Both the position numbers and the translations under genes were made by a program. The notes under the pieces were generated by a model. It saw nothing but the letters and a program-made list of their open reading frames with translations. It did not search any database and was not told where the DNA came from. Positions 4,547-35,071 of a DNA stretch of 47,132 nucleotides are shown in pieces. The stretch's first letter is position 1, and each line of letters opens with the position of its first letter. This DNA comes from Fragilaria crotonensis (lineage: Eukaryota > Bacillariophyta > Fragilariophyceae > Fragilariales > Fragilariaceae), in contig JAKSYS010000505.1 in NCBI GenBank assembly GCA_022925895.1, forward strand, positions 1-47,132, in the 5' to 3' direction.

Positions 4547-4871
4547 GGTTATTTTGCCCAATCTATAGGCTAACCCCCTCACGCTTCCTTCCAGGCAAGC
4601 CAATTCCTCTCTATAGGAATTCATTGTTTCCTTTCCAAGGACACCCAGGCTGATCCTTTCCAAGGATCTGTTTCCCGATTGCTCCGCAATCGCCTACGCT
4701 GCAGCTCTGAGTCAACTCCGTTGACTATTTTCTACTCTACGGTTTCCAACCTACAAGCAAGTCTCTCCGAGCGCCTAAGTTACCAACTAGGCTATTTATT
4801 CTACGTTTAAAAGCACGCCGTGCTAGTCCTACGCAAGACCTTCCCAAGTTCTTCTTCCTGATCTCTCCGAG
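4547..4871 (+). other. Copia untranslated leader
   Basis: This is the stretch between the 5' LTR and the first ATG of the gag frame, with no open frame of note. It should contain the primer-binding site (TGGTTATTTTGCCC begins at the LTR edge, but I could not match it to a specific tRNA) and the packaging signal. Confidence 0.6.
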
Positions 4872-7374
4872 ATGGCGTCTCCGACACCAACTTCTGACCC
4901 CGTCACCGCGTCCCCGACGCCACCTGTCTCCGACCCTATCGTCGCCTCTGATAGGCCCGATAAGCCCATTATGGGCAACATTGTCTCCCTTTCCAGGGAT
5001 GATTGGTCCGCTTGGACTGGCGGTAAGCCAGCTCCTGGTTGGGTCGGCCTCGATCCGAGCACCGCCGACGACATCACGTCACCAAACCAACTCCGACCTG
5101 TCCATGCCTCCGCCTCACAAAAGGGGTACAACTTTCGTCGTACCGGCATGACGACCCTCTTTACCCAAGCGAGCAGTCTCGTCGACTTCCAGAACGCCGT
5201 TTGGGACCATCTCGTCGACTGCGGGATGGACACCATCGCTTACCTCCCCGATCCCGAAAGCTCCTCCATGATGACGAACGTCGTCAGGAGCCACTCTCGC
5301 TACACCGTCGCGACAGCGAAGACTCTCAGCTCCCAGCAGATTCTTCGTTACGACAAGTACGACAAGTCGAACGACCTCGCCGCCACCAAGTTTCTTCTCT
5401 CGTCCCTTGATCCCGCTCTCATGAGCAAGATCAAAGAGAAAATGGACGACGATGACTCGTTTCACGTCGTCTGGCTCCAGCTCATCAAGACGATTCAGTC
5501 GACTTCGATCGAGCGTTTTGAAGACCTGAAGGCCGCGATCAAGGCTCGCCACCCGTCCCAGTACGCCGGCGAAAACCTCGAAGCCCTCGCTGCCGACTAT
5601 CGAAAGGACGCACGTGAGCTCACAACGGCAGGTCAGTATGATCACAACCTGACACTCACCATGCTCAAGACCTTTCTTCTGGCCGGCGGAGCCGGAAACG
5701 AAGACTTCCGCTTTCCTCTTCGTTCGACGAAGCAGCGGCTTGATCAGGCGCTCCTTGACATTGGATACAAGGAAAAGTCAGGCGCCCATGCTCACATGGT
5801 CGCTGAGAAATTGACGTTCCAAGATATTTGTCGCCAAGCTGAAGATGCGTACCGTACGCAATTTGACAGAAAGGAATGGCCTCCAGCGAGTCATGCACCT
5901 GATGTCCGAGCTCCGTCTGCGACGTTTGGCAATGTCGCAACTGCCCCAGCAGGTATCTCCCGAGCCGAGGTACTTACGTTGATTCAGTCCCAGGCATCCG
6001 GGACCGAAAGCGACAACGAAGAGGGCAATTGCCACAAGTGTGGAAAACCCGGTCACTGGGCGAACAAGTGTCGGAACTCAATCGTAAGTCGGATCGTCCT
6101 CCTCCTCTGGGTCCGTCAGGATCGCACCAACAAACATAAATCCTGGCGCACAATTCCACCACTTCCCGGAACTAGCAATTCCAAGAAAGTGAAGGATAAA
6201 ACCTTCAACTGGTGTGAGAAGTGTCGTCGTTGGACTGTCACGCACACGACCGCCACTCACACCGGTGGAGAACGTCGTCCTCCCGCTCCGACACCGTCGC
6301 CAAGGGCAAATCTCAGCATTTGGCGCCGGATCCCTCCGTTTGGTTCCTTGACTTCCCCGTCCAACCAAACGTCGTTCTCTTCTCGTTCGCTTTTAACCCT
6401 CATCCCAGGCGCGAACCCATGGCTACTTTTTGCTCTTTCCCTCGCTATCTGTGCCATTGTTCCTAATTTGGTTACTTTGGCTATCTATCTTGCGTCCGCC
6501 ATTCCATGGTCGACCATTTTGGCTTGGGTTGCCAACAACCTTCACCAACTTGTGCTTCATCAGCCAACGTTGCTGCTCGCCCCCACCGTTTGGATTGCTC
6601 TTCTCTTCATGTCTGTCTGGCCCCCGAAGTCCTTTTTGCAATCTCCTGTCGCTCCGACGGCTCCCTCGTCTCCTCCGTTCACGCGTCATCAACGTCGTCG
6701 CTTCTCGCGACTCCTCAAGAAGTCGTTCGCTCCGCCACGCTTCAATTCGGGTATTCGCGCCAACAAGTTGCATCGTTCCTATCCTCTACGTCTCCGACAA
6801 CAAGGCTATGTCGCATCGCGACCTCCCACGCTCGCTCAGCGCGACGACTTTCGTCACTTTGCGACTCTCAAAGAACGCGCACTCCGTCTTCAACGTCGCG
6901 CAGACAAGCTTCGCACCTCCCGTCGTTCTCCTACGTTGCCGCCTACCACAGGCCAAAAGGGAGAGGGAAACAGCAAATCCAAGCGTTCGTGCCCTCCCTG
7001 GTGTTCCAAACGCTCCCGTCCGTCGCCACGAACCGCAAAGTATTGCCCTGTGGCACCCGCCAACTCTCCCGACCCGTTCGCAATCGCTCCGCTCACGTTC
7101 CACCAACGCGCCGCCGCCAACAAGATCCTCTCTCACGTTCATCTGGCGTGCCATTCAACGCCGCTTCGCATGGCTCTTCAAGCTCCTGCACGCATGCGCG
7201 AAGCTCTCGGCCCCAAAGCAAACACGAGTCCCATCATTTGGGACTCGGGCGCCAGCATTTCCATCACTCCCGACATCTCCGATTTCGAAGGCCCCGTCAC
7301 GTCGCCTGGAACGATCACTCAACTCAAGGGCATCGCTAAGGGTCTCCAAATCAAAGGCCAAGGCGAAGTCACTT
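4872..7374 (+). CDS. Copia gag-protease part of the polyprotein (interrupted)
   Basis: The frame opens at ATG 4872. Residues about 90-350 form a helical Copia Gag. A CCHC zinc knuckle (CHKCGKPGHWANKC) starts at residue 387. A further Cys/His block (WCEKCRRW...H) follows at about 6210, then a strongly hydrophobic stretch (6415-6640), a basic region, and the aspartic protease motif WDSGAS with the catalytic Asp near residue 791 (7242). At codon 835 the frame runs into the nested transposon and stops at 7395-7397 after seven foreign residues. The original polyprotein resumes at 19599. The region just after the zinc knuckle (6075-6150) reads poorly in this frame, so a one-base error or spliced segment is possible there. 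Confidence 0.9.
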
Positions 7375-7387
7375 CATCTAAGGGCAC
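7375..7387 (+). repeat. Terminal inverted repeat, left end
   Basis: CATCTAAGGGCAC is the exact reverse complement of 19584-19596. Similarity stops after 13 bases. Confidence 0.9.
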
Positions 7388-7858
7388 CGATACGTAGGAT
7401 AAAAATATATCCGAAATCTTCGTTTTCAGAACGAGGTCTATTTTTTAACGTATATATTTAGCATTTTTGTTGTAAATCGTGTTGAGGTACGCACAGTTTT
7501 GCGTACTCCTGAGTATACAACAACGTAATCCTGATACATGCAATTCATATTCCTGAATACATTCTTCATCTTTATCAAAGAAGGACTCAAGTAAATACGT
7601 TTTATTACTGCATATACATTCACCTTAATAATACGTAAAACCCGATATCTGCTTTTCAGGTTGATGCTATTTATGACAAAGTGTTCCTGAATTGGCGTGA
7701 CGCGTTCTGCGGTGTATTATTATCATCTATCTGCAAAGAACTATGCGTCGTTAATAGTAACGGCTATTCATCTTTCTGAATCATTATAATGCATATTCCT
7801 AAAACCATCACATAACACAACGTTGTATCTCTCTAAAGCCACACAACACGACGCATTG
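7388..7858. other. Left subterminal region of the nested transposon
   Basis: AT-rich non-coding DNA between the left inverted repeat and the first gene. The hexamer TCCTGA occurs four times between 7507 and 7690 and might be a subterminal transposase-binding motif. It also includes an imperfect palindrome GGATAAAAATATATCC at 7397-7412. No gene is seen. Confidence 0.5.
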
Positions 7859-9322
7859 TTACAATGGCGTCATTTCGGGTCTACGATCGAACGCCTGACT
7901 CTTTCGAAGATCGTCGCGAGGTTTTCGCTTCTTTGCCCGTTCATTGTTAACCATGGGTGCGTGGGATGATTTATTCTTCTGACGCCGTTTCTGGTGAACC
8001 TTCAACAACTCCTGATTGAAGGCGTTGCCTCGCAACTGACGATCAACTTCCACAAGATCGTAAAGCTCGTTATATTTTGCAATGCCATCGTCAGACCATC
8101 CAATGCCACCATTGGCTTGCTGCTGGCGACTAACGCGCGAATGCGTATACTTCGGAAGCTGTCGCAAAAAGTGGGATGAATTCGTTAGGGTCGGGCGGGT
8201 TGTTCATTGGTCCACATTTACACACGAATAAAATCGTACTTACTGGCAGCTGTATTTCTGCTGCGTTATGCATCAAAGGCATCACCTGCATGTTTGTTCG
8301 TAAGCAGGTTGACTCGAGCAACAGTTGGCAAACCGCAATAATGACTCACCATCTGCTTTTCCATTTGTAATTCTGCTGCCCAACGCGCAGCGTAGTTGAC
8401 CAACACCAACAACATAAACGCTTCGTCACTAATGGTTAGAACATATTCCTGAAAATTGTCTTGATTGTCGCCACAATACTTGGCCATGAGGGCATCGTTG
8501 TTCCACACACTGCTAGAAACAATACAAGGGGCAAAGACATCCATCAACGCAATGTAATGGACCTGATTCTGTCGCATTTGTAGCATGTAGGCAATGTCGT
8601 CATCACTACCGGTAATCCTTTGGTAACCATTGATCTTGCCCGTTTCGCCATCTGTACAATCGGCATTTGTTAGTCACAAAAACAGCATGAGATCTTTTTA
8701 TTTGGATGGCACATACCTCGAAAACGTAAACGCATTGCTTTAATGCAGTTGTTGCGATGATTTCCCAAGAGTGCGTTTAATTTTCTTTCGTGTTTCGTGC
8801 CACCATTGCAAGTTTGTTTCGACAGACGAAACGTTGCAGTAATTACGCACCATACCACACACAGACTCCGGATTGTAATCATAGTCCCCATGCAAGTCAT
8901 CGTCAAAAAAATTTAACTCTCCGAAACAATTGGTGCTTCACGCAGCCTGTCACTAAAACCTGCAACTGTTTTGTCGACACGCTCAATGTCATATCACACG
9001 GGGCATGGCTTACCGTTGGTTGTAACATGTGCCCACCTACCGCATCTGTTTCAAATTGCACACACATCGGCAATGGTGAAACGCGTGCTTGACTTGTTGT
9101 GAGATCCGCCGTAATTGACGAAAAGCATCCATTTGATGCCGATGGTTGTGCACCACGTTGATGATGCTGCTCTGTGTTAGACGCTACTTTTATCGTTTGT
9201 TTTTCAGCAACCGCTGGAAGTTGAGCACTTGTCAACGAGGCAAGCAAAGCATTAGTCGGATCAATCTCCATGGTCCAGGCTTTGTTTGCAGCTGGTTTCC
9301 GATTCTGCGTTTTGCGTGACAT
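7859..9322 (-). CDS. Transposon-borne spliced gene, function unknown
   Basis: Five exons can be drawn with GT-AG borders: 9322-9014, 8916-8717, 8651-8350, 8285-8244 and 8158-7859, giving about 384 residues. The introns are 64-97 bp. The first acceptor is the least certain, and a one-base frame change near 8775 has to be assumed inside exon 2. The C-terminal exon has a segment GIGWSDDGIAKYNELYDLVE followed by a long Lys/Arg-rich tail. The W-x3-G-I-x3-Y-N pattern recalls Myb-like helical repeats in other transposon proteins, so DNA binding is a guess. I do not recognise the family. It faces away from the small gene at 9525, and the two probably share a 200-bp promoter. Confidence 0.6.
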
Positions 9323-9524
9323 TGTGCATTTTTGTGTCTATCCGTTCAAAGCCACCAGGTCTTCTTGCGTGTCATTTCGTATAAATGTGTTGTGGCATGT
9401 AAACCTTTACGTTACCAATGTACGGGCTACACAAGCTTTGAATTGTTATGTTATTTTACATGTCTGAAATCGAGTATTACAGTATTTAAAACTTGCTTCG
9501 TTTACACGTCTGACGTGACCGTTC

Positions 9525-10082
9525 ATGCCACCAAGAAATGGCAGCATCAATTTCAATTCCAGGGCCGCACTCATGCTAAGCCACATGGAACATGCAGACG
9601 TTGCATCTATCGATTCCGCCACACGTCAAGCAATCATGACTTCATCACCCGCTGTTTGCTCATCACCAGTCGGTTCCGTAAGTTTGTGTCAAGAATGCCC
9701 CTCACCGGATGAATTTCACTGTTTTGATCTTCGGTGCTTTGTCCAGCCACTGCCCGTCATTACATCACAGATGTTGGAGGCGTTTGCTGACGATATCGAA
9801 TACGTCAACGAAACCGTATCAAATTCATTCAAAGAAGACAACCAATGTCCACGCCATGCTAGACAAACAGAAATATCATTGATCAGTGGTTCCAAACCGC
9901 AATCAAAGCAAAATGTTTCCAAACCAAAATCGAATGATTCCATCTCTGTGTCTGTATCGCCGCCCAGCATACATTCCGAGAAACAAAACATGCCGTTTTT
10001 TCACTCTAACGAGTCGTATGCTTGTGATCATGGTACTTGTACCGCCCCAACGCCGTTGGCAAAGAAACGCAAGCTTCATTGA
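9525..10082 (+). CDS. Small transposon-borne protein with basic C-terminus
   Basis: 185 codons from ATG 9525. The protein is Ser/Pro-rich and low in hydrophobics. It has a small Cys/His cluster (CQECPSPDEFHCFDLRC, about residues 55-71) that could bind zinc, and it ends in KKRKLH, a plausible nuclear localisation signal. There is no family match I can name. It lies head-to-head with the spliced gene at 9322, inside the nested element, so it may be an accessory DNA-binding or regulatory factor. This is inference only. Confidence 0.45.
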   Translation: MPPRNGSINFNSRAALMLSHMEHADVASIDSATRQAIMTSSPAVCSSPVGSVSLCQECPSPDEFHCFDLRCFVQPLPVITSQMLEAFADDIEYVNETVSNSFKEDNQCPRHARQTEISLISGSKPQSKQNVSKPKSNDSISVSVSPPSIHSEKQNMPFFHSNESYACDHGTCTAPTPLAKKRKLH

Positions 10083-11066
10083 CGCGTGTTTTGTTGCGGG
10101 GTCAACGTTCACTGTTACACGATGATGCTGTACTAAGATGTCGAAGTACGAGGACTCCTCGATTGGTAGTACTGACTACTGACTGGTGGTGTCGCACTTA
10201 GGAGTGTGTACTACAGTACTGGAGTAGTACTCCACTACTCGGCATTAGATATTTTTTAAATCTCGTTAAATAGTCGTTAAAAAGACGTTATTTCGAGCGA
10301 TCTTGTTGTTGTTTGACAGCAAATGCACACAACCTGTCACCTTCAACAGCATACTTCACTCTCTCTTCACACCTTCCCATTGCCACCTCTTTTCTTCTGA
10401 ACACCTCCTCTTGATCACCACCATCTCATTGGTCTTATTTGTGTGAGTTCTGTGTTTGTGTTGTTGTTTTTCCCCGTTTATGAATGGACTTCATCATTTT
10501 GCTGTTGTGTGAAATCGTCTTGTAACCCGGATATACGAAACTGCCCAGTGCACGTGATTTCTCAATGTCGGTACAGTAGGTACCTACAGCAGTACAGTAC
10601 TGTAGCACAGTACCGCATAACTCCGTACGCAGTATTGTTCTACTGTATCAAGGACACAGTGTTTGATCAGCGCAACCACTTTTACCGTCCGGTGTATACA
10701 TTTCACACTCACTTCTCTTGTCCTACTTCACCACCTTTACAGTCCTTTGCTTCAACAAGCAACAAAGCAAGCAACCCTTTTCGAATACCATTGGTCATTC
10801 CTTTCGGAAAGACTTGTACCAAGAGTGGGGGCTTGGCGTTACATCTGTTTCTTGTGTGGACGCTGGTCACCTGGGGAATCTTGCTTTATTCATTTAAAGT
10901 AGTGTGTCCGCACGTCGTGCCTAACCAGCAAAGCACCTGAGACTTAGTGGACGTCCTTGAGGTTGTTGATTCAACAAATCCCGGTCATTCTCTAGTGACC
11001 GTCCCATTCTTGATACTTGTTCTTTGAAGAAAGGAAGATCAGCTACGAGATCCATTCAATTCAATT
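10083..11066. other. Upstream region of the GNAT/Ulp1 gene
   Basis: About 980 bp without a supportable gene. It is rich in GTACTG/CAGTAC palindromes (10150-10245, 10565-10640). An open stretch at 10443-10940 has no domain and a composition unlike the neighbours. The region probably holds the promoter and leader of the gene starting at 11067, whose ATG follows CAATTCAATT. Confidence 0.5.
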
Positions 11067-13871
11067 ATGTCGGTTAATACTGATGATGGATTGACAATAA
11101 TGGCAACTGCTGCATCGCACGCTGATGCAGCAGTTCGTCTTCTTTCAACTGCGGCAAATTCTCAATCAGTCAATGCTGCAGCTGTTGAGACAAGGGATAG
11201 TGCAGCAAGCAATGCTTCACAAGTACATCGAGCGGTGCATGCTCTAACCACGAATTCTCCTACTTTTGAAGGATCTTTACAATTAGAGACAGGCGAAGAG
11301 AAAATGGAATCATACACAGACACAGCTTCATCCAGTCTGGGAGCTAAAGCCCCCCAAAGTTTGTCATGCGACATGCCACTTTCTTCTTGGACATATCGCA
11401 CCGATGCGTACTGCTTCACTGGGCTGTCGGAGCTACAAAAATTGCCAAGTGATGGAAAGCATTCTCTCCGAGGTGTTGTGCAACGCTTTAAAACGATACG
11501 TCGAGTGGGTGTGTTCGAAACGCAATTAGAAAGATTTAAAGGATGGGGCACGGACTTGCGAATGTGGCGCTTTCTTGAACCGAACGAAGGCGATAATTCA
11601 AAGTGGCTCTACAATATCGTTGTTGTCGATCCCAGGGCAACAGTTTTTCATGTTGATAAAATGAAACATGCGGAAGCTTCCTCGGCAAAGCTTGAATTCT
11701 TTACAGGTCTTGCAAGAAAGTTTTATTTAACCATGTTTGAGGCAAATGAGGAGAATACCTACAAAATTGATCTGTCGCTGAATCGGGATACGACAGTTAT
11801 GTTATTGGCATCGAAAGTTGGAAGCAAGGACTTGCCCAAATCAACATTTTATTTACGCAAACACGTTCATGTCGTATCAGCTGCATCGTATCGTTCTGTA
11901 TGTCCTGATGAAAAAGATGATGACTCCAAGCCCTCTGGATCCATATCTCCGGCTACGTCTACGGCTCCAAAATCTGCGTCTTTGGACGACGCTGATAAGG
12001 AGACCAAGGAGACCAATGTCATGCTAACATGGTTGGCAGTTTCTGACAGGACACATCCGATGCCATCTATTGCTGCATCATGGCGTCGACAAGGGATTGG
12101 CCAGTTCATGTTTATACTCATTATCAAGCAATGTGCAGCATTCCAAGATGGAGTCAATATTGAAGTCTTTTTGCAATGCCATGAGCCGGGCGCATTCAGA
12201 TTTTACTGTATGCTGGGCTTCCAACGACTCAATTCTAATCACGACGATGGTTTCACATTGCTTCCACAGAAGTTGCAAGACGTCCTATTTGCAGTTCCAC
12301 CGAATAAGAGAAAGGGAAGTCATCGACAATCTACATTTTCATTCTGGGGTGATGATCCCGAACAAGTTGGGCAATCCGCCACTAAGTTGATGCACCTGGG
12401 CCACCAACAATTACGAACCGTGATTGAAATTGACGACGATGGATCTGTGGTGGTGTTAGAAGCAACGAAGGAAGGCCTGCAACTGGACGAAAATGTTCAC
12501 ATACCCTTGAAAGCTACGTGGTGTGAGTATCCACCACCACGTTTTGGACCGAATGGGATTCGACTGTCGTATTCAATTTCTTTGATTGAAAAGCTTCTCA
12601 AAGGACTTCCACGCATTCAAGAACTATTACCTCCAACCTATGCAAACCCTGTGCCTGCGACATCTCTTCCAGTCAAAGGTCACATATCGATATTGCGAAG
12701 GATCATACATAGCCACTCTGAAGGCACAACTTGGATGTCATCTAGTGAAATGGACTTGATGGTTGCAACTTTGATGCTCGACGGACGTTACGAAGATTCC
12801 GCTTTTGTAGTGCCGTTTAGTATTTGCGAAGGCATATCGATTGCCTTTGGTTCATACGTTAGGTATAAGAAGTTGTTGACGCAAGCCGCAACGCTTCAGG
12901 CAATGCTTGATGACGGAACTCGTTCCTTAGAAGACGTGGACGTGGTCGTTAGAGAGAATCTCGGACGTGAGGTTGCAGATGCATTGTCCGAATACAATAA
13001 TCACATGAGCAACCTTCTTGTCAAAGTTGTCAGTCGGAATCCTGGTTTGCTTCAACGAAGAATAATTGTGTTTCCATTTCGTGAAGGTCGCGACCATTGG
13101 TCTGCCACGTTTGTGTTCAATGCCGATTCCATTTTTGAAAGCAAAGAACAAAGCGACTCTTCGTCGAACACAGGGACAGTCCTGCGACCTTGCTTCTTTC
13201 GGTATTGCTCATTGCGCAATGATGGTACACGCAAGGTTGCATTAAATCAAGGTGTCATTTGGTTTTTGAACTTGTGTGCTTCCTACGAAATGCACATGAA
13301 GTCGAACCTGGGAAGTCAACGAATTACATTTATGGAACCTTTTGGATCAAATACTGAAGGAGACATGTTAGGGACCGATCTTTTCCCCGCACTGCGCGTC
13401 AACGAAGATGGATACTTCCCATTGCAGAGCGATGGCTACAATTGTGGTGTTGGTGTCTGTGCAACAATTGGAATATTGTTCCGTGAATTTCTCCCTCGAA
13501 ACGACGACTTCTTGTTTGATGATCTTTTTTCCAGAGCAAACATGCCTACTTTTTGTTGTGAAAACAGTGGCGAGATTTTTTGTCACATGCCGGTTAGCAT
13601 AATGACCAAGCTTCCAGGTAATGACGATGCAGTTGGAGCGAAGAAGAAAAAGGAGAAAGACTACCTTTCTTCAGTAAGAGAGCAGTGGTTTACTTTGTTT
13701 GATCGAATGGCTGAATTTCAATTTGTTGGAGGTCCATATATGTTGGACAAGAAAATGAACCAAACATTGCGTATGCTTCCACCATGGACTTACTTTCATG
13801 GCCTCGTGGTAAAAACGAATTATCTCAAGAGAGACAAAGGAGAAAGCTGCTCTTGTGCTCCGGCAGGCTAA
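11067..13871 (+). CDS. GNAT acetyltransferase + Ulp1/C48 cysteine protease protein
   Basis: 934 codons. The N-terminal 100 residues are Ala/Ser-rich. Residues about 325-395 hold a GNAT acetyl-CoA site: W339 then RRQGIG (R340-G345, the R-x-x-G-x-G loop), with FYCMLGF at about 380. From about 570 to 830 the protein fits the Ulp1/C48 (SUMO or ubiquitin-like protease) fold: DHW with His677, an acidic MEPFG segment where the triad Asp/Glu is expected, and LQSDGYNCG with Gln and Cys793. Such proteases cut ubiquitin-like tags from proteins; GNATs acetylate amines. A fusion of the two inside a transposon is unusual. The frame ends at 13871, but strongly coding-like sequence continues in the next frame (from about 13830), so the protein is probably longer than this. 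Confidence 0.8.
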   Translation: MSVNTDDGLTIMATAASHADAAVRLLSTAANSQSVNAAAVETRDSAASNASQVHRAVHALTTNSPTFEGSLQLETGEEKMESYTDTASSSLGAKAPQSLSCDMPLSSWTYRTDAYCFTGLSELQKLPSDGKHSLRGVVQRFKTIRRVGVFETQLERFKGWGTDLRMWRFLEPNEGDNSKWLYNIVVVDPRATVFHVDKMKHAEASSAKLEFFTGLARKFYLTMFEANEENTYKIDLSLNRDTTVMLLASKVGSKDLPKSTFYLRKHVHVVSAASYRSVCPDEKDDDSKPSGSISPATSTAPKSASLDDADKETKETNVMLTWLAVSDRTHPMPSIAASWRRQGIGQFMFILIIKQCAAFQDGVNIEVFLQCHEPGAFRFYCMLGFQRLNSNHDDGFTLLPQKLQDVLFAVPPNKRKGSHRQSTFSFWGDDPEQVGQSATKLMHLGHQQLRTVIEIDDDGSVVVLEATKEGLQLDENVHIPLKATWCEYPPPRFGPNGIRLSYSISLIEKLLKGLPRIQELLPPTYANPVPATSLPVKGHISILRRIIHSHSEGTTWMSSSEMDLMVATLMLDGRYEDSAFVVPFSICEGISIAFGSYVRYKKLLTQAATLQAMLDDGTRSLEDVDVVVRENLGREVADALSEYNNHMSNLLVKVVSRNPGLLQRRIIVFPFREGRDHWSATFVFNADSIFESKEQSDSSSNTGTVLRPCFFRYCSLRNDGTRKVALNQGVIWFLNLCASYEMHMKSNLGSQRITFMEPFGSNTEGDMLGTDLFPALRVNEDGYFPLQSDGYNCGVGVCATIGILFREFLPRNDDFLFDDLFSRANMPTFCCENSGEIFCHMPVSIMTKLPGNDDAVGAKKKKEKDYLSSVREQWFTLFDRMAEFQFVGGPYMLDKKMNQTLRMLPPWTYFHGLVVKTNYLKRDKGESCSCAPAG

Positions 13872-15527
13872 ACAAGCACCTCCAACAAACCCACCTTTCG
13901 TTATGGTAGGAAGTGTTGTGGATTTGACCACACCAACCAAAATGACGCGAGCAGGACATGCAGGAGTTGTCACGGACGTCACAACACCATCTGCTCATGT
14001 GCAGGGATCTGATACGAATAATGAATCAGACTTTGTGTTGCAAGATACAGACGATGAACAAGAATTTCAAGAAGCAAATTCAAGCAATGTCGACGGGTCC
14101 AGTAACGACTCAGCTTTTCGTTTAAAAAGCGAAGAAAAGAAACCAGAAATCGGGGATGTCAGGTTTGCATTCGTAACTCAAAGCCAAGTCAATGCCAATC
14201 CGTGGCTGAAAATGTTGCTGTTCAAACAGCAACATATTCAGCCATCAATGAATTAGGTGATGATGTCACAGCTGAAATTAGAGATGTCCATGCAGGCAGC
14301 GAAGTCCAAAATGAATTCGGTGATAATGTCATGCGTGAGGACCAAGATGAAAGTCATGATATGGACCAAGATGAAAATCATGATATTCACGAAACGATAG
14401 AAGTCACGAATGGTTTGGGTGAAAAGCAAGATGCTACCAGAGCCAGTGATGAAACTTCTGCCGTGTCCCCGCCATGTCATGAAACTACTGCGGACGATCC
14501 TAACAAGGTGACAGTAAAGTATTTGAAATCTTTCGATCCCAGACGTCTGCGAATACCCAAGCGGCCTTCAGAGGCAAAAGTGGATTGGATCAAAAGATTG
14601 AGACTTGGCTCTGATGATAACGAGGGATTCAAATCTTTAACAGAAAACCAAAAGAAAAGAGCAAGAAATTCCCGCAAAAAGCAAGTTGAGGAAGAGGAAA
14701 AACTTGACGCGATGGAAGCAGAGTACGAGGCTTCGTTGAGAAAGAAGATATGCACCCAATCTTTGAAATCTATTAAAAGCTTCCAAGACAAGTATCGAAC
14801 CGACCATGAGGAAGAAGAGCCTATGGTGAAACGCGATGCCGACTACGAACGTGAGCTCCAGCAATTCATTTCTGATAGTTTTGAGGCTTGGGGATGGGAT
14901 TCCGACGAAAAGCATGAGAACCTAATATCTACATGGGCAGCGCAACTACACAACCCCGACAATACCGAAAAGGAACAACAGTGGATACGCACTCTTATAA
15001 AGGCACTGAAGGATGAACGAGCCACATTCAAGAAGAAGCTTACCAAAGAGTTTATGTTTACCAGGCGTTCCATGGTAAAAGGTCTCAAATACGTGAGCAG
15101 AACCAACACTTTCAAGGCACGTTTGGTATTTTATGATGTTGATCCGGACAACAAAGATAATTTTATAGAACAGGAAGAGGAAATGCAGGTGGATGAAGCT
15201 TGGGTCCGTGATGAATTTTCCGAAGAAGATGTTCAGCATATTATTAATATGCGCCTTGACAATACTTGGATACAAGCTCCGCGGGACATCGAGGTGTGGA
15301 TCGGAAAACAAAAAATTGTTCGTGTGCGTTACACTGGACCTCGACAGATGCGCGTCATTGACAGTGAGGCAATGACAAAGTATTTGAGAGAGAAGCAGAA
15401 TAGACGTTCAAGTAGAGCTAGAGCGATTCGTCTGGCATTTAAGAAAAGACGGGCAAAACCTTTAAAGGAACAATCTTTGACGAAGAAGAAGATGACGAAC
15501 CAGAGCCTCGCAAAACGATCAATATAA
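13830..15527 (+). CDS. Charged linker region continuing the GNAT/Ulp1 gene
   Basis: Coding sequence continues in another frame from about 13830 to 14200 (acidic, Ser/Asp-rich) and returns to the original frame from about 14190 to 15527. The second part is 441 codons, very rich in Glu, Asp, Lys and Arg, with long helical stretches. It has a more folded segment at 15060-15380 (KGLKYVSRTNTFKARLVFYD, then VRYTGPRQMRVI) that I cannot name. Two one-base frame changes are needed to join it to the GNAT/Ulp1 part, and a third (about 15460) to join the next module. I see no good introns at these points, so indels (real or sequencing) are the simplest reading. Confidence 0.6.
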
Positions 15528-16213
15528 AAGAAAAGTGGGTCGGCAGAATGAACAATGGGAAAGAAACAGACCTTGACGAGACTTTTGTCAGGAAAAATTT
15601 CGGTGACGCCTTTGCTAATGAACTTAAGAGTTCGAAGAGAGGTTTCGTGGATGTTCCAGTTGGAGATTTTAAACATTCTCATCTGCATCTGCATCCTCAT
15701 TTGGAGGTTCCTGGTGCCCCGACCGTACGCTTCACACAGAAGGATGGCAAGGATTTGTGCGTGTCGAAATCGTTAGCTTCAGCTCTTCACTCACTTGGAT
15801 TTGAGAAAGAAGCCGCAGAAATAGATTTCTATGGTGAGGAAATCTTGAAAGGTGCTGTCGTTGATGCTCTTGATTGCGTGATGCTGCGTGCAAGGAAAAT
15901 TCTACCTAAGTGGATTGTTATTGACAGGATCCCTAAAAGTTTTGATTGGCAGAAAGATCTATTGGATGAGCGCCATATTTTGGTTGGTGTCTTGTACGCG
16001 TCTGACGGCAATTGTTCTCATGCGGTAACAATTCATGGAGGATTTGTGTATGACGCAAATGAAGTCGTTGCACTCCCGTTGTGCCAAGAGGCACTTGATT
16101 ATTGCACTTCAACAGCAGATGTGAAGAGTTCATTTGTTCGCTTTCGTCGTGGGTATTTCCTAAGGTACAAAGGGACAAAAAAGCACAAACTTGATCTGAT
16201 GACGCTTGCATAA
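15462..16213 (+). CDS. Papain-like Cys-His-Asp module at the end of the cargo gene
   Basis: Numbered from the ATG at 15548 (221 codons), though coding-like sequence in this frame already starts near 15462 (acidic FDEEEDDEPEP). Three spaced signatures fit a papain-fold peptidase: LCVSKSLASAL with Cys71 at a helix start, SHAVTIHGGFVYDAN with His158, and Asp169 (or the following Asn) as the third residue. OTU and C39-like peptidases share this order, but the D-G-N-C box of OTU is absent, so the family is open. It reads as the C-terminal domain of the same long protein as the GNAT/Ulp1 gene. The alternative is a catalytically dead structural domain. Confidence 0.55.
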
Positions 16214-16321
16214 GGAACTACAATCTATGTGAATGATTTACATTACGTATGACATTCATTTGATTGCTTTACATTAAGTTGATTGCTTTACATTAAGTTT
16301 GACATTTAATTTCTGATCTTA
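16214..16321. repeat. Short direct repeats between convergent genes
   Basis: A 19-base unit GATTGCTTTACATTAAGTT occurs twice in tandem at about 16262-16299, preceded by a diverged copy (GAATGATTTACATTACG). It lies between the stops of the protease module and the transposase, where termination signals of both genes are expected. Confidence 0.6.
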
Positions 16322-19108
16322 TTAATTTAAGTTGAATTCTGTGATGGATAGTGATAGAGTGGTAAACTGGGCGGGCCACTCGTCATACGGTTTTGTTACC
16401 AAAACTTTTGAATCATCATCCTTAATGGAAACCACAAAACAAGGGGAATCAATTGCGTTGGGTGATATGGTCAGGTAGGTGCTTGACCAACTCCATTCTG
16501 TAAATAAAACGGAATCAATGTGCGACCGTTTCATTGCTGCCTGAACAACCAAAGCAAATCGCTCCGGGTTGTTTGGATCGTCATCCAATACAACAACGGC
16601 AGCTAATCGACAAGGACAAATACTATCATCATTGAACTGGACATTCATCCAATCGTAGACAGCTCCGCCAGATTGGTAGGCAGGATGACATCGAAAAGTA
16701 TAAATGTGCCGCACATATTCAGTTGCAATGCGGACATGAAGACCAAAATGTTCAGTCAGAAACTCGAGCAATGCTGTTGGCAATCGCATCCGTTGAAGGT
16801 CAGTACAGCTATGCCATACCACTCGAGGCACTCAAAGACGCACGTCACGGTTGCAAACGTGGCGTGGCCAGACGTTTGCAAAATGGCAGATTCGGTTGTG
16901 TCGTCATCATCATCGCTGTTTACGTCGGAAACGCTTGAGTTATCGAAAACTTCATTGTCACCCCAGATACGTGTGTGAACCAAATTAATGATATGGGAGT
17001 CTGCAAGTCGTTGTGCAGATTGCAGTTCATACAAAATTCCTGCATGTCGTTTTGTGCCCGACGCCCAGGTCGTTTGGCTGCATAAATCAATAGCGATTCT
17101 GGTCGTTCGGCATTAAAGTTTCGTGGTGCCCCAAATCGTTCGATGTCATCAACAATGTGCAACAATTCATGAAACTTTGGAAATTTCCAACAATTTTCCT
17201 TCATTGCAGGGATATTGTTTTTACACAATTTTAATAACGCTTCGATCGACGAACGTGCCGATTGAATTGCGGTCGTGCTGTTGGAGCTGTCCCAAAATGT
17301 GTCCTGCATAAGCCAGGCATCAAAACAGAGAAGTGCTTCGAACACTTCAACAATGTTTTTCACAGTGGCAATGCTTCGGCGCTCAAACGTGTGGTCCAAA
17401 ATATCCCAGCCTTCATCATATTGAGACAAAATAACAAATAGAAAAACCAATCCGAGGCGTTCGCGCGCTGTTACCTTTGTTAGATTGGTCACTCCACGGC
17501 TAAAATCGGTAGCCGGATATTTTCTGCGATACGTTTGCCGGTGGCGGAGATGAAATTGAATTGCAAGATTGTCCAAAGCTGCTTTGCGAGATACCGGAAC
17601 ATTTTCTAACACCAAAAAGGTAACGTGCTCAATTAAACCTTTGCGAAATGCATGCATGGTTTCCACAGGAGTTGCACCAAAGATACCTCGTACATGATCA
17701 GCAAGCACTTCGTCTTGAAAGGCATTGTGCACTGCATGTTGCGACCACCGTACACGAATTGCCTTGTCGTCACTGGAGGCAATCATTGCCATTGGTGCGG
17801 CATACAAGTACCGACACGTAAAATAAGGAGAATCTAAATCTTCATAACTGACATTGCATGATCGACAGTGGCGTTGCACCTGCGGCGTGTGGGGGCCATA
17901 ACGACCACATAGAGCATCCCTTCTTGCATGTCTTGTATCACAAAAAGAATGCACGTAACAATATCAACATGAATAGATCCGGTTGGTCCTAATGGTAAAT
18001 GGACATTGCGTAGGCGCGAAGACGACGTCCGAAATGAGGATAGCACAACCTGTAACTGCGCATGATAGTTGCGAATGTTGTCACCAAGTTTGAATGTCTG
18101 ATTTTGCGCAGAAGAAGTTTTGGTTTTGGCAAGAATCCATGAAATCCCATGCGGGGATGGTGCGTCGAAATGGCTCAGCAAATATGGCAGGAGTAAACAT
18201 ATACGGTTTGAGTGAAAATCGGTCATTCCCGGTGACAGATGTACGATCAATCCATTGTATGATTGGGACAAAGAGTTGACGTTGAGGATTGGTAACAAGG
18301 CGTTGATACGCATCTTGATACACCTGACCGGACAAAGCTTCGCCTCGAACACCATTGGGACTGGTGTACGGTCGCAATGGGTCCTGCACATCAATAAGGA
18401 GATTTTCCTGGGTCATAATGGTTCGATTTTGTAACAATTGTAACAGTTGAGGAACAAAATCAAATGTTATGACATCACACGGAGGACCGTGTGGCACGTC
18501 AACCCTGCGTACAGATGGCAACAGCTGCGTGGCATTATTCATCATAGCATAAAGTCGATCAACATTCCTGCGATGTGTTTGCCTCCTTCTGGTTGAAAGG
18601 AAAAGCCGTCGGCGATGGCCGCACGTGCCCATGTTAGAATTGCTTCGAAAGCATAGTCCGGTGCATTCATATCATTCAGAAGTTTAAGTAGTGCCACAGT
18701 CCACTTTTGGTTTGTTGAGAATGGAAAAGAGACAGGCGGAGGCGGCACTGCACAAGATTGGTGTGGCACATTTGGTGGACACGGAACATGGTGAAAATTG
18801 CCGTCTTCAATTGGAAAAGCAGTTGATCCTGATGAAGAGAAATTGTCGTTTACAAAATCACAACGTAGCGGCACAGCGCGTTGAGAGCTTGCGTAGACGG
18901 CGTTAGCGTCTTCCGCCGCACGGTTTGTTGGGCAGGGCACCATAACGCAACTAGTGTCTAACGCGGAACCTTTACCTGCAGACATACGGGCACGAAAGAA
19001 ATGCCAACACGAAGTGGATTTTTGTAAATGCATTCCAAACGATTTCTCGCTTACAAACCGCCGACGGCGTCCGCTGCAGTGAGGATTGAGACAGACAAAA
19101 GATGACAT
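16322..19108 (-). CDS. Plavaka/CACTA-like DDE transposase (frame broken)
   Basis: It starts at ATG 19108 with a zinc finger (CLNPHC...FGMHL...C). Then come the conserved blocks of a large DDE transposase: W-A...F-x-F-P (18600), FDFVPQLLQLL, VPIIQWIDRTSVTG with a candidate first catalytic Asp at 18246-18248, the RNYHAQL block (18060), IQDMQEG with LCGRYGPHTPQVQRHCRSC (17860-17950), and PKFHELLHIVDDIERFG-PRNFNAE near the C-terminus, with a candidate Glu. The order and the QDMQEGD / FGAP-NF-AE motifs resemble Plavaka-type transposases; Zisupton/KDZ is the alternative. The frame changes at about 18555, 18115, 17927, 17050 and 16830, each keeping the expected motif order, so the gene is either assembly-damaged or a recently dead copy. 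Confidence 0.75.
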
Positions 19109-19196
19109 GACAAAAGAAACAAAACAATATCTCAGCAGCAATCGTGCAACCAGAAACGGATGCAAAGTGGCAATTAGTAACAAGGCGAAATACTGG

Positions 19197-19583
19197 TTGT
19201 GGTGGCTGCTCTATCAGGCAAAGGCAATCAGTGTGATAGAGTGCCATTATAAACCTGATCAGAGATTCAGATTCCTGAACTCACACTCGTAGTAACCGAG
19301 AACAAAAGCACAGATTTCATTAACAAAAATCACGGAATAATGAAATTGTTGCAGAAAATGAACTAAACGCGTAAAACTTGGTATCATTACGTACGTATGA
19401 GAATGATTAACTTCATACCCCGGCATATGTATTGCGTATGTAAGAAAACAATGAATAACGGCTTTTTAATTTACTCGGATTTACGCAAACACATCACCGA
19501 ATAACGAACGGAATACATACATATGTAGTTTAATTCATTTAAATGAAAAAAAACTTAAGTTAATAATGTTGAACCTCATCCTT
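19197..19583. other. Right subterminal region of the nested transposon
   Basis: AT-rich non-coding DNA between the transposase start and the right inverted repeat. One TTCCTGAAC motif (about 19271) resembles the TCCTGA hexamers of the left end. No gene is seen. Confidence 0.45.
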
Positions 19584-19596
19584 GTGCCCTTAGATG
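19584..19596 (-). repeat. Terminal inverted repeat, right end
   Basis: GTGCCCTTAGATG, the exact reverse complement of 7375-7387. It is followed by the second TT of the target duplication (19597-19598). Confidence 0.9.
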
Positions 19597-22500
19597 TTGG
19601 GCTGTCCACGATCAGCTCGGAAACCTTCGACTTCTCAAAGTTCCCGCGTTCCACGTTCCCAACATCAAAGTCCGACTCCTCTCAACGTCCAGTCTCCTCC
19701 AGACCTACCCTGACGAAACGATCACCATCGAACCGAATCGTCTGACGCTCAGTGGCGTCCCGAACGACGTCAACCGAGGACCCGTCACTGCAAACGTCAA
19801 CCCGCAGAACAATCTCCCAACGTCGGAAGCGTACAACGCAACCGATCCTTTCAAGGCCGCCGACGCTCTCGTTTCGATTGTGAACACCGTCCACGAAAGG
19901 AACCTCAACCTTAACGAAGCAGAGAAAGAATTGCTTCGTTGGCACTATCGTTTGGGCCACATCGGTTTCAAAAAGGTTCAATTTATTCTGCGTTCGGGTG
20001 TGGTGAGCAAGACAGAAGAGAGTCGACGATTGCAAACCGCTGCGTGTCGACTCACCTCGTTTCCGAAATGTGCCGCCTGCCAATACGGCAAACAGCACAG
20101 ACGTCCAATTCCCGGCACGACGCCTTCTTCGATTGTCAAAGACAGAGCATACGCTCTCAAAACGGACAATCTTCTCCCGGGTCAACGCATCTCTGTCGAC
20201 CATTTCATTTGCAGCACTCGCGGACGTCTACTTACCTCCGCCGGAAAGACCAAGCTTGACGATATGTATACCGGTGGATGTATCTTCGTCGACCACGCCT
20301 CCGGCTTCATTTTCGTCGAACATCAAGTCAGTTTGAACTCCCACGAAACTCTCAAGGCAAAAGAGAGCTTTGAGCGAATGTGTCGCAACACAGGAGTCAC
20401 ACCGCAAGAGTATCTCGCTGACAACTCGAAAACGTTTACGTCCTCTGAGTTCTCTCGCAACCTTTCCGACTTCCAGCAAGTCATCCGATTCGCTGGCGTC
20501 GGCGCTCACCAACACAATGGAATCGCCGAACGCAACATCCGTACAATCATGGCCATCGCAAGGACCATGATGTTGCATTCGGCCATTCATTGGCCGGACG
20601 TCGCCGATCCCACACTTTGGCCCCTCGCCGTCAAGCATGCTGTGTTCCTAGTGAACCACATGCCTGACCCACGAACTGGCCTTTCCCCACATGATGTCTT
20701 CACAAAGACTCGCTGGGAACAAAAGAAATTGATGGACGTCCACGTTTGGGGATGTCCAGTTTACGTCCTCGACAAAATGATCTCGGACGGCAAGAAATTG
20801 CCACGCTGGACTCCTCGTTCAACTCGCACCGTCAACCTTGGGTTCTCAGACAAACACGCCAGCTCGGTCCCTCTCGTCTTGAATCCTCAAACGGGGTACA
20901 TCACCCCACAGTTCCACATCGTCTTCGACGATTGGTTCGCCACAGTTCCCGCTTCCGCCGACGACCTTCCGAACTTCAACGATGATTGTTGGCAACGAAT
21001 GTTCCGCGACTCGACGTTCCAATACGTCCTCGACGACGAAGACGAAGAAAGGCTGATTGCTGGTTCCACCGACTACGAGCAAGCAAACGAACTGCTCTCC
21101 CAGATGCAACGCGTCGCAACCGCTCTCGACAACGCGACTCCTCCGCAGGTTCTCCCAGTCGCTCCGCCTCCGCTGTCAACTCCGTTGCCGCCTCCAAGGG
21201 AGCAAATTGCGACGCCACCACCAGTCGTTGTGCCTCCTCCCCTTGCCACTCCGTTGCTGACTCCAAGGGAGGCGACTCCGCAACCGCCTACGCCGATCGT
21301 GCCTCAACTCCCGACTCCAACTCCAGTCAAACTCTTCCCATCATCGCTGACTCCAATTCGTCCTGCGAACGAAAGCGATAAGGAAGTGAGCGAGCAACCA
21401 GTCGCTCCAAAGGCAACAAAAGCAAAGAGCACACCTGTTAAACACGAACCTCGTCGCTCCACTCGCAATCGTTCGGCACCTGTCCGCCTTGGATACGATG
21501 GACAACAAGGACATGGTTACATCGCCGAATTCGATGGAACCTCCCTCGAATGGCTTTACAATGAAGTTGCCGAGTGTCTTTCGCCACCTCCCTCGTCGTA
21601 TAAGGCAAGTGTCAGCGATCCTGACACTTTGAGCTTCAACGAAGCAATGGCCGACCGCGACAACATCGAAAAATGGCTGAAGGCTGCAAACGACGAAATT
21701 CAAAGTTTGCAGAAAAACGGTACATGGATCGAAGTGCCGATCACGGAAGCCAAGACTCGAATTTTGCCCGGTACTTGGGTGTTTCGTCGCAAACGTACTC
21801 CCGATGGTACTATCAGTAAGTACAAGGCACGCTACTGTGTAAGAGGCGATCTCCAAGAAAACGTTCAGGAGACTTTTGCCCCAGTCGTGGCTTGGAGTAC
21901 TGTACGGTTGTTCCTAGTTCTTTCACTAACTTTGAACTGGAAAACTTGCACCATCGACTTCAGCAGCGCGTTCGTTCAAGCCCCGCTTTCGGATCCAGTC
22001 TGGATCCATTTGCCTCGTGGATTCCACTCTCCGAGAGGCCACGCCACGTGCCTGCGACTTTTGAAAAGCCTCTACGGCTTGAGTGTGGCGCCACGACTTT
22101 GGTACCAACACTTGTCGGAGGCCTTGCGCGAGGAAGGCTTTAAAGCCTGCGCGAACGACCCGTGCCTACTCTACAAAGACACAATTATGGTTGTTCTCTA
22201 CGTTGACGACTTAGGTATTGCCTATCGCGACCAAAGCGACCTCGACAAGCTCTTCGCCAACCTGGAAGCGAAGAATTTGAGTTTCACTCGCGAGGGCACG
22301 TTTACTGACTTCCTTGGCATCAATTTCACTCGCGACGCTACGAATGGCACGCTCACGTTGACTCAGAAAGGCCTCATCCAGAAAATTAAGGAAGCGACTG
22401 GCATGTCCAACAGCAATTACAACTGGACTCCAGCCGCTCAGGCCGCACTTTTGGAATTGACCCTGATGGACCTCCCATGACGGAAACGTGGAGCTACCGC

Positions 22501-31270: not shown

Positions 31271-33157
31271 TCACTTCTCTAGTATCCGAGTCACTTTCAG
31301 AATGTACAAACAACAGCTTTTGCATAAAAGGTCTTTTACCCCTTCTACTTCGTCAGACTCTACGAAAGAATTTGTTCCAAGCTCCGAATCCACATGTAAG
31401 AAGGCGCATCCCCGGTCACGTTGGCATGTGCTGAGATGATACGCCATACAATGTTGAGAATGATACTTCTTCCATTCTGCCAATTGATCATCCCGTGACA
31501 GTGTCTTCAGCTTGGCAACGACGGCTTTCGACGGTACCAAGGCACCGACACGCAAATAAAAGTCCAAATCTGTCTTCCCCTCCCGTTTGGCCTTGCGAAT
31601 CATGCGTTCTTCGAATCGCTTTCGCTTCCCCTCCTCGTGTTTCTTTTTCGCCAAGGCCTCCTTTTCTCGAATAGCCTTCTCCTTGTCATACTGAAAACTG
31701 CCAGGGTCGCGTTGATACGATTGGACTTGATTGACGATCCGTTGCACATCCTCCAGCGTCGGTGCAGCAACACAGTCGTCCATGAGCTGATATTTCGTCA
31801 ACTCATCACGGAGCATGCGACGAATGTGAAATACTACAGTCCGAATCGCAATGGGGTGCAGACGAACCAAATCCAAATACTCATTTGCCAAATTCACTTT
31901 TTGACTGGCACATGCCACCAGATCCGCCAAGGAGATTTGTGTGGAAGGGGCGAGTGATGGTGAAAGGACGTGATCGAATTCGCGCAACTGCGTCACAACC
32001 TTTTCTTTGCCGTCTAGCTTTTTCTCCTCTTCCTCCGTCAACGACTCTCCCCGAGTCCGTTTGGCTTCTATCAATTTGATGTTACGAAGTTTCTTTTCCA
32101 ATTTGCGCTTCTTTTTCAAGTCTGTACACGGCTCCTTCGATAACAATGACGAGTCGGCGTTTGACGCGCCGAAATTTGGAATTTCAATCATTTTGTCCAT
32201 GTCCGTCCCATATCGCGGCAGAAAAAGAGCAGGATTGTCTAGAATCCCTTCGGCGCTCATGACACCATTGGCCTTGGTAGATTCCAAGTTCTTTTGACAA
32301 TCTTCAAAGGTTTTAACATTTCCATTGGCAATCAATCGAACATGTGGCAGTCGTTCTCGAATTGCTGTAATCTGTTCCAATAGTGCTGGTCCATCCCGAG
32401 CCCCCGGTCCCTTCCGATCCCACGTGGCCCGGTAGCGCGCATGAATGGCAATCCATGACGCACCAGCGTCATGTAACTGTTGTACTAGTTGGATGGTTTC
32501 GTCGAGTGTATCCAACAATCGAATCTTGACGCAAATCGGCGTGTTCGGTACCGCTTGGACAGCGGCGGCAATCATGGCACATATCAACGGTCGATCCTCT
32601 GGTCCCAACAAATAGGATCCGAAATGACCCATATGTGCTGTTCGTTGTGGACATCCCAAATTCAAATCAATGGCATCGCAATATGGCGCGGCCGCCATGG
32701 CAGCCTTGGAAAAGTCCTCGGGAGTATTGGCGCTGAAATGACAAACGAGCGGTCGATCTTGATGAGTATTAATCGTACTGTTATTGTTCGAAGTAACAAG
32801 ACCCAATTCGGATCGCCGGTAAGTTTCATCGTTTGCAAAGCGCGCAGCATCCATCATGGGTGTATAGGCCAGAGTTGCACCATACTTTCGACACAGTAAC
32901 CGAAAGGCAAGTTCAGAGGCACCCACCATGGGAGCAAGAATGTATCTTAAATCAGGGAGATTCTTTGTTTGTGGTTGTTCGTTGGAGTGCAATGTCTTTT
33001 GTCGTTTGCCATGGCCATCATCGGCGTCGTTACTAGTACAATGTTCCTTGGATCGCGATCGTTTCTTCTCCTTCTTCGCCTCTCTCTTTAGTTTCTTCAA
33101 CGCTTTTCGTTGCTTGCGCTGTTCGGGACTTTCATTAGCGTCAGGATGTGATGCCAT
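31271..33157 (-). CDS. DUS1: tRNA-dihydrouridine synthase, DUS1 type
   Basis: 628 codons from ATG 33157, frame intact. A Lys/Arg-rich N-terminus (probable nuclear signal) precedes the FMN-binding TIM barrel (about residues 70-330): LAPMVGASE, then DLNLGCPQR with the catalytic Cys169, VKIRL, HARYR, IANGNV. LNLGCPQR and GHFGSYLL match DUS1 (which modifies D16/D17 of tRNA) rather than DUS3. The C-terminal third is charged and ends in a likely CCCH zinc finger (C-x7-C-x5-C-x3-H). In yeast, CCCH fingers sit N-terminally in DUS3, so this placement is notable. A Lys/Glu-rich insert after the barrel (about 340-390) is also long. Confidence 0.9.
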   Translation of the reverse strand: MASHPDANESPEQRKQRKALKKLKREAKKEKKRSRSKEHCTSNDADDGHGKRQKTLHSNEQPQTKNLPDLRYILAPMVGASELAFRLLCRKYGATLAYTPMMDAARFANDETYRRSELGLVTSNNNSTINTHQDRPLVCHFSANTPEDFSKAAMAAAPYCDAIDLNLGCPQRTAHMGHFGSYLLGPEDRPLICAMIAAAVQAVPNTPICVKIRLLDTLDETIQLVQQLHDAGASWIAIHARYRATWDRKGPGARDGPALLEQITAIRERLPHVRLIANGNVKTFEDCQKNLESTKANGVMSAEGILDNPALFLPRYGTDMDKMIEIPNFGASNADSSLLSKEPCTDLKKKRKLEKKLRNIKLIEAKRTRGESLTEEEEKKLDGKEKVVTQLREFDHVLSPSLAPSTQISLADLVACASQKVNLANEYLDLVRLHPIAIRTVVFHIRRMLRDELTKYQLMDDCVAAPTLEDVQRIVNQVQSYQRDPGSFQYDKEKAIREKEALAKKKHEEGKRKRFEERMIRKAKREGKTDLDFYLRVGALVPSKAVVAKLKTLSRDDQLAEWKKYHSQHCMAYHLSTCQRDRGCAFLHVDSELGTNSFVESDEVEGVKDLLCKSCCLYILKVTRILEK

Positions 33158-33780
33158 GCTGTGTGCGTGTTCTTATGCGGCGAAAGATGGGGGTGTAGTG
33201 TGTGGAGTGCTCTTGGTCGAAAACGGTGACATGTGCCTTGGGCATCTGTCTCACCGTCAAGAAATGATCGAACTTCTGCAATCGGTTGGTTCTGCCTTCT
33301 CCATCCCATCGACTCCCGCGAACTCGGGCGCCGAGAATCCCTGTCAAGATGTACAATGTACATGTACTCGTACCGGCATATTGAGTACACCGTCGGGGTA
33401 CGATGTACTCTACTGTATGACTGTTGTTGAATTCTACAGTATGATGAGTCCAGCGGTACAGTACTCTTGTACTGAGTAGAGTATGCAAAGTTACGTATCC
33501 CAGTGTACTGGAGTACAAGTACTTGTAGCCATTTGTACGCCTATGCAGAGGTGATACGGTAGCATAGTGTACTCGGTACTGTTCTGAACACGATTTTTCC
33601 GACTGAAGGTTTGACGATCTGTTTTTGTGTGTGTGTGACACGAAACACGATGTGACACCCTTGCTTATACTTGAATCAAGTCTGTAGTCGCAACTCGTTA
33701 CAGGCATCAGCGTTCCTTTCACACGCACCCAGAACTGCGTACAGGACCAGTACACAGACTACTGAGATGATAATCATCAT
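33158..33780. other. Intergenic with GTAC-rich palindromes
   Basis: The upstream region of DUS1. Between 33345 and 33580 there are many GTAC-centred palindromes (TGTACATGTACT, AGTACAAGTACTTGT). No gene is supported on either strand. Confidence 0.5.
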
Positions 33781-33822
33781 GAAACTCTGTATGCTTTCTT
33801 TGTTGCTTTCAGTAGGCGATCC

Positions 33823-34788: not shown

Positions 34789-35071
34789 TAACATTGGGAT
34801 TGTCTGGAGGATGGTGTTTGTTTTATATTATGTAATCATGATGTAGTTACAGGTTACCACCTATTCGGTTTCAACATGAGTAGGCGCTGTGCGTGTTTGG
34901 TTCGTGACTAAGAGGCGGTACAATGAAAGCTAAGGTATATACTGAGTACTCGAGTACGATCACGATGTCATAAATCGATGATCAATGGTCACGAATGGTA
35001 TGACAGTTATCGAGCAGAAGGCGCTTGGGGAGTGAAATACAGAGATGTGTGAAGACAGGCGAAGCATATTT
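34789..35071. other. Intergenic, convergent 3' ends
   Basis: The region between the stops of the NmrA-like gene (plus) and SQD2 (minus); it should contain both polyadenylation sites. Nothing else is seen. Confidence 0.5.

Follow-up and report, generated by a model that had tools for sequence, protein, structure and literature searches.

Structure of the insertion and its Copia host

A 12,222-bp DNA transposon occupies positions 7375-19596 of a contig of Fragilaria crotonensis; the whole stretch analysed, 47,132 nucleotides, is called the window here. The element begins with the 13-bp sequence CATCTAAGGGCAC, ends with its reverse complement and is flanked by TT on both sides, as an earlier reading of the DNA (the sequence-only reading) had claimed. 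Between the ends lie genes A, C and D and a possible gene B. The features are listed in Table 1.

The element is inserted in the reading frame of a Copia host. After removal of the element, the joined flanks were translated as ...KGQGEVTWAVHDQLGNLRLLK, and the Copia frame stayed open through E-V-T-W-A-V-H-D-Q, in agreement with the earlier proposal. The Pfam matches right of the insertion, RVT_2 (E 5e-37) and GAG-pre-integrase (E 1.7e-10), indicated a Copia-type host. Left of the insertion, a zinc knuckle was 0.2 bits short of the Pfam cut-off.

The 177-bp joined Copia flanks were used as the query against the genome, and the best 40 of 52 candidates were scored. The junction was uninterrupted in 37 of these 40 matches, of which 34 covered the whole query and 3 more spanned the junction. 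Native carriage of the element sequence by other Copia copies, a possibility raised by the sequence-only reading, was thus not found. The best empty site among the matches listed was 99% identical to the joined flanks (contig C387). Nesting in a repetitive Copia frame offers an exact empty site for study. Of the other 3 matches, two were the halves on either side of the window insertion, and the third was a right half on contig C17.

The C17 copy occupies the same Copia site as the window copy, and its contig begins inside the element (C17:1-9000). Aligned over 2,309 columns, its right flank showed 19 mismatches and 31 gap openings relative to that of the window, whereas each of 8 other Copia copies had at least 66 mismatches in about 1,600 columns. 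A second independent insertion at the same site was dropped because the C17 flank was far closer to the window than those copies, and the two were counted as one insertion (allele or duplicate). Farther right in the window, at 31271-39486, ordinary host genes for a dihydrouridine synthase, an NAD(P)-binding protein, a glycosyltransferase and an amine oxidase were observed.

Table 1. Features of the window and complete copies of the element in the genome
Feature	Position	Strand	Length	Evidence or remark
Copia host, portion left of insertion	4827-7374	+		frames, empty sites, Pfam
Target site duplication TT, left copy	7373-7374	.		flank sequence, pair analysis, empty-site comparison
Left 13-bp terminal inverted repeat	7375-7387	+		sequence; genome 13-mer search
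Gene A, small protein of unknown fold	8266-9322	-		exon 1 about 9322-8717, exon 2 8651-8266
Possible gene B	9525-10082	+		family-1 copies only; weak case
Gene C, large accessory protein	11067-16213	+		indel-broken in window copy; uninterrupted in relatives
GNAT-like domain of C (WRRQGxG acetyl-CoA motif)	12069-12254	+		profile match; Pfam in relatives
C48/Ulp1-like domain of C, tentative	13035-13520	+		bounds approximate; His 13095-13097, Cys 13443-13445
Papain-like C-terminal domain of C	15683-16186	+		Cys 15758-15760, His 16019-16021
Gene D, Plavaka-type DDE transposase	16322-19108	-		broken by indels in window copy; Pfam, alignment
Right 13-bp terminal inverted repeat	19584-19596	-		sequence; genome 13-mer search
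Target site duplication TT, right copy	19597-19598	.		flank sequence, pair analysis, empty-site comparison
Copia host, pol portion right of insertion	19599-22480	+		frames, empty sites, Pfam
Complete copy, window			12,222 bp	duplication TT
Complete copy C2			12,219 bp	duplication TA
Complete copy C87			12,223 bp	duplication CA
Complete copy C733			12,216 bp	flanks ta/aa, no matching duplication
Complete copy C5			10,578 bp	duplication TT
Complete copy C872	C872:88763-96397		7,635 bp	duplication TG
Complete copy C61	C61:77789-85248		7,460 bp	duplication TA
Complete copy C589			7,023 bp	duplication CA

Copies in the genome and recent activity

The genome searched comprised 62.1 Mb in 881 contigs. 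The published F. crotonensis draft is described as 61.85 Mb in 879 contigs with organelles removed, assembled by Canu from MinION R9.4.1 reads and polished with Pilon (PMC9476933). The 13-mer occurred 20 times, 10 on each strand, against 0 and 0 occurrences of the reversed-13-mer control and about 1.6 predicted from base composition, which excluded ends arising by chance. Sixteen of the 20 occurrences formed 8 convergent pairs with a spacing of 7.0-12.2 kb, that is, 8 complete copies (family 1). The other four were single ends on C17, C55, C106 and C664. Perfect 2-bp duplications, whose sequence varied between copies, flanked 7 of the 8 complete copies (chance about 4e-8). The suggestion that a genome search for the same 13-bp ends would confirm a family was borne out.

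The window, C2 and C87 copies differed pairwise by 4, 2 and 3 substitutions over an alignment of about 12,205 bases and by 23-29 indels; most indels were single-base, and about half lay in homopolymers. So few substitutions between copies with three different duplications pointed to recent activity. Recent transposition together with residual nanopore errors would give these differences. About 120 substitutions separated C733 from the three copies. The C5 copy was a mosaic (L003-L004): its left 6.2 kb was 4 substitutions from the window copy, and its right 4.3 kb was 8% diverged (348/4,327), which suggests that subfamilies have recombined or undergone conversion.

The C61 and C872 copies were 97-98.5% alike and retained the ends together with parts of D and A as remnants, with other repeat sequence inside. 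Since their duplications differed, the shortened, non-autonomous element moved as such. A 252-aa frame in both copies was considered as cargo and set aside as part of another repeat with at least 150 matches (best 150 of 485 candidates). In the window copy, the frames of A, C and D were all broken, and these breaks may be residual nanopore indels or real. Given the breaks, the window copy is a candidate rather than a demonstrated active element. The 9-mer TTCCTGAAT was found twice near the left end (7550-7692), with its core once on the right (about 19265-19280). These occurrences were too few for a claim of subterminal repeats; the motif is a possible candidate for a transposase binding site.

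The transposase and its partner genes

In the C5 copy (L003:1188-4094), the frame of gene D ran uninterrupted for 969 codons, about 937 from the likely start. The Pfam search of this protein matched PF18759 (Plavaka) with E 4.9e-12 and 46.1 bits (cut-off 26.3), over profile positions 85-321 of 325, and found no other domain above the cut-off. The protein search with D gave 109 relatives with identity up to 88%, and PF18759 was precomputed for 90 of them. In the alignment of 19 D sequences, D321, D427, C452, H681, H685 and E705 were invariant; in some rows, C449, where the C(2)C motif begins, was substituted. D321, D427 and E705 are candidate catalytic residues by our own assignment. The DDE residues, together with the C(2)C and H(3-4)H motifs that lie between the second D and the last E, agreed with the motif description published for Plavaka and CMCT relatives (PMC12730594). 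The dN/dS of D was 0.145-0.153 for C5 against five copies, which amounts to one comparison because the five are mutually close. By this measure, D is under purifying selection. A partial Plavaka transposase next to a DDE_Tnp_1_7 transposase was also observed in a virus-collection contig (IMGVR_UViG_3300049043_000356, 3147-7915), which is either a virus or a misfiled eukaryote contig.

The product of gene C is about 1,750 aa long, and the gene was a single frame in relatives P0113 (1,790 aa) and P0115 (1,735 aa). Single C sequences gave no Pfam match above the cut-off. The GNAT acetyl-CoA motif is R/Q-x-x-G-x-G/A. In the corresponding columns of 28 C sequences, R was present in 26, R in 24, G in 27, and G or A in 28. 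The profile of this region matched NAA50 (E 5.2e-5), and the domain thus showed both the motif and the profile similarity of GNAT. Pfam GNAT (Acetyltransf_10) was found in 5 of 10 C members (best 2.9e-5), with the window sequence itself under the cut-off.

The catalytic set of C48/Ulp1 peptidases is His, Asp, Gln and Cys. In the C48-like region of C, residues H, W, N, Q, D and C were invariant in 28 of 28 rows. The full catalytic set was absent from this alignment: His, Gln and Cys were present in all 28 rows, but the position that we take, by the Ulp1 motif, to be that of Asp was Cys in 27 rows and Asn in 1. Peptidase_C48 (PF02902) was matched in 3 of 28 C members (best 0.0016). The E-value of Pox_A6 (best 0.0011, 2 of 28 members) was close to this, and the C48 match alone therefore proves little. 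The C48-region profile matched no Ulp1/SENP structure in the PDB; all 10 matches were to TCP-1 eta (best E 0.0051), lay in another stretch and were taken as chance. Matches to Pox_A6, NIF, Csc2, a DUF and other Pfam entries in one or two C members were scattered and were likewise taken as chance.

The C-terminal domain of C fits a papain fold, with Cys at a helix start, His, and Asp/Asn; its profile matched no PDB sequence. The putative catalytic residues of C were invariant over 28 and 32 sequences. The dN/dS of C was 0.50-0.71 in three comparisons of family-1 copies, indicating only mild constraint. Relatives of C were sought in a virus collection, and none was confirmed there.

Gene A, which is small and conserved, has a GT..AG intron at about 8716-8652, as seen from the intron and flanking exons compared over 7 copies, and further introns are possible. 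Exon 1 was frame-shifted in the window assembly copy, and exon 2 was 51-57% identical in 3 aligned relatives. Between C664 and family 1, dN/dS was 0.17 for exon 1 and 0.25 for exon 2. No Pfam match was found for gene A. The frame of gene B was open in the window, C2, C87, C5 and C589 and broken in C733, with dN/dS of 0.38 (C589) and 0.77 (C664). Gene B was unmatched in the other loci searched and in Pfam.

At least 45 D loci were obtained from the best 47 of 641 candidates, a lower bound biased to close relatives. The locus count was based on 71 of 71 D matches, 45 of 65 C matches (best 43 of 198 candidates), 71 of 103 C-terminal matches (105 of 105 candidates scored) and 72 of 106 gene A matches (best 150 of 172); those omitted were mainly second pieces of listed loci and weak A matches. 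Among the matches listed, C lay within 8 kb of D at 44 of the 45 loci and was convergent with it at 43, and A lay within 14 kb at 38 loci, on the same side as C at 26 and beyond D at the other 12. With the C matches but not the C-terminal ones, C was found at 28 of the 45 loci, 27 of them convergent. The only D locus lacking C among the 45 was C30, where D had just 35% identity with the query. Outside family 1, the identity of the listed D matches to the query was mostly 35-68%. The constant pairing indicates that C is not cargo acquired once. The "unusual cargo" of the sequence-only reading accordingly has to be replaced by a conserved transposase partner. Since C is kept convergent beside D across diverged families, it probably serves the element. 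The second gene order, with A on the D side, was seen for example at C361:124400-129426, C156 and C647; two of these 12 cases were the broken region of C106, where the order is ambiguous.

Two further families were bounded. Family 2, with ends CATCTAAGGGGGCA, comprised C686 (11,632 bp, duplication AA) and C449 (11,633 bp, CA), and both copies, which were located without using the duplication, had one of 2 bp. Family 3, with ends CATCTAA, comprised C147 (TA), C131 (TA) and C874 (CA); its search demanded an equal 2-bp flank and a CATC start, so its duplications are not independent evidence. In the family-3-type end search, 7 of 12 loci were without convincing ends (C872b, C620, C140, C69, C347, C2b and C253). 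The gene order A, C, D was common to all five family-2 and family-3 copies.

Classification, possible roles and comparison with known systems

The most probable explanation of the locus, with a probability of about 0.9, is that a cut-and-paste DNA transposon of Plavaka type, related to CACTA and carrying three genes, inserted here recently in F. crotonensis. The DDE transposase encoded by D would recognise the CATCT..AGATG ends and insert with a 2-bp stagger, as expected from the biochemistry of its family. Gene A is perhaps a DNA-binding partner, which is a guess. The likeliest role of C would be to act on host chromatin or on SUMO/ubiquitin-like marks, resulting in escape from silencing or in post-transposition repair. 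VANC/KIU of VANDAL (PMC13317346) and Ulp1/OTU of Ginger1 (PMC2836005) are precedents for such a role. Any one specific role of C is a candidate to which we give slightly less than even odds.

EnSpm/CACTA elements proper have ends starting with 5'-CACTA. It is very improbable that the element is an ordinary EnSpm/CACTA with Plavaka merely as a label. The CA..TG termini are compatible with both, and Plavaka transposases are described as related to EnSpm, with C(2)C and H(3-4)H common to the two (PMC12730594). Against this, Plavaka alone passed the Pfam cut-off, the three bounded families had ends CATCT..AGATG rather than CACTA, and the duplication was of 2 bp. For fungal EnSpm, 5'-CAC..GTG ends and a 3-bp duplication are reported (PMC12730594); neither this combination nor CACTA was found in families 1 and 2. 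The proposal of a CACTA/Plavaka type with 2-3 bp duplications was therefore upheld by the Pfam match, the termini and the 7 of 8 copies with 2 bp.

The other alternatives concern C. Passenger genes are usually lost. A gene copied without benefit to the element, whether passenger cargo or a captured former host gene, would fit the mild dN/dS inside family 1 and the single C sequences without a Pfam match, and capture of Ulp1 domains by plant transposons is described in a review (PMC13317346). The presence of C beside D at 44 of 45 loci among the matches listed, although most D sequences outside family 1 are so diverged, and the invariant putative catalytic residues both argue against it, and we regard it as improbable. 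A somewhat better case, still unlikely, is that C works in transposition itself, by processing or stabilising the transposase or by recruiting repair, and not on silencing. The constant C-D pairing agrees with this, and for Ginger1, whose transposases bear OTU or Ulp1 domains, the authors propose a repair role around transposition (PMC2836005). However, C and D are encoded separately and on opposite strands, and C61 and C872 moved without C or D matches among the matches listed, both proteins possibly being supplied in trans. A distinct Plavaka branch in diatoms and relatives, with a three-gene core and with a GNAT acetyltransferase and two different cysteine-protease-like domains in one anti-silencing or mark-stripping protein, is proposed tentatively, at clearly less than even odds. 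If true, this would amount to a counter-defence system of transposons with a composition that has no earlier description. The conserved partner protein C is a concrete, testable candidate for how a microalgal DNA transposon handles host silencing or repair.

The open literature on Plavaka was consistent with the sequence-only suggestion of an undescribed family: the listed items also mentioning diatoms concerned, by their titles, a green alga and a mushroom, Repbase being outside this scope. In the open literature on transposons with Ulp1, acetyltransferase or cysteine protease, no such gene combination appeared in the titles and abstract starts listed, subscription papers lying outside this scope. 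Plavaka, treated mainly in fungi in the literature seen, is extended here to a diatom whose one genome holds several families and near-identical young copies.

Fungal PlavakaB likewise has a Plavaka transposase, 2-bp (to 3-bp) duplications, a CATC start and C(2)C/H(3-4)H, but its ends are CATCA..TGATG, and those of PlavakaA are TGT..ACA with 2-bp duplications (PMC12730594). Neither pair of ends was found in the three bounded families. By description, the diatom ends are closest to PlavakaB and not identical, and the element is filed as Plavaka with the lineage left unassigned. Some fungal Plavaka families carry a TET/JBP dioxygenase, in contrast to the GNAT/C48-like/papain-like partner in the diatom (PMC12730594). 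The EnSpm-Plavaka of Auxenochlorella is also a Plavaka of a microalga, a green one, and its insertions are polymorphic between haplotypes (PMC12633428). Ginger1 resembles the diatom element in bearing Ulp1 or OTU cysteine protease domains, to which C is likened; there the domain is fused to a Gypsy-integrase-like transposase, and the available text gives OTU or Ulp1 per protein, never both (PMC2836005). Arabidopsis VANDAL (Mutator) belongs to another transposase superfamily, and no GNAT or papain-like domain is mentioned in the available part of the source (PMC13317346). It also has separate accessory genes, VANC/KIU, of which KIU has a Ulp1 domain (PMC13317346) and VANC is reported to counteract silencing (PMC13317346, PMC10398659, PMC5735166).
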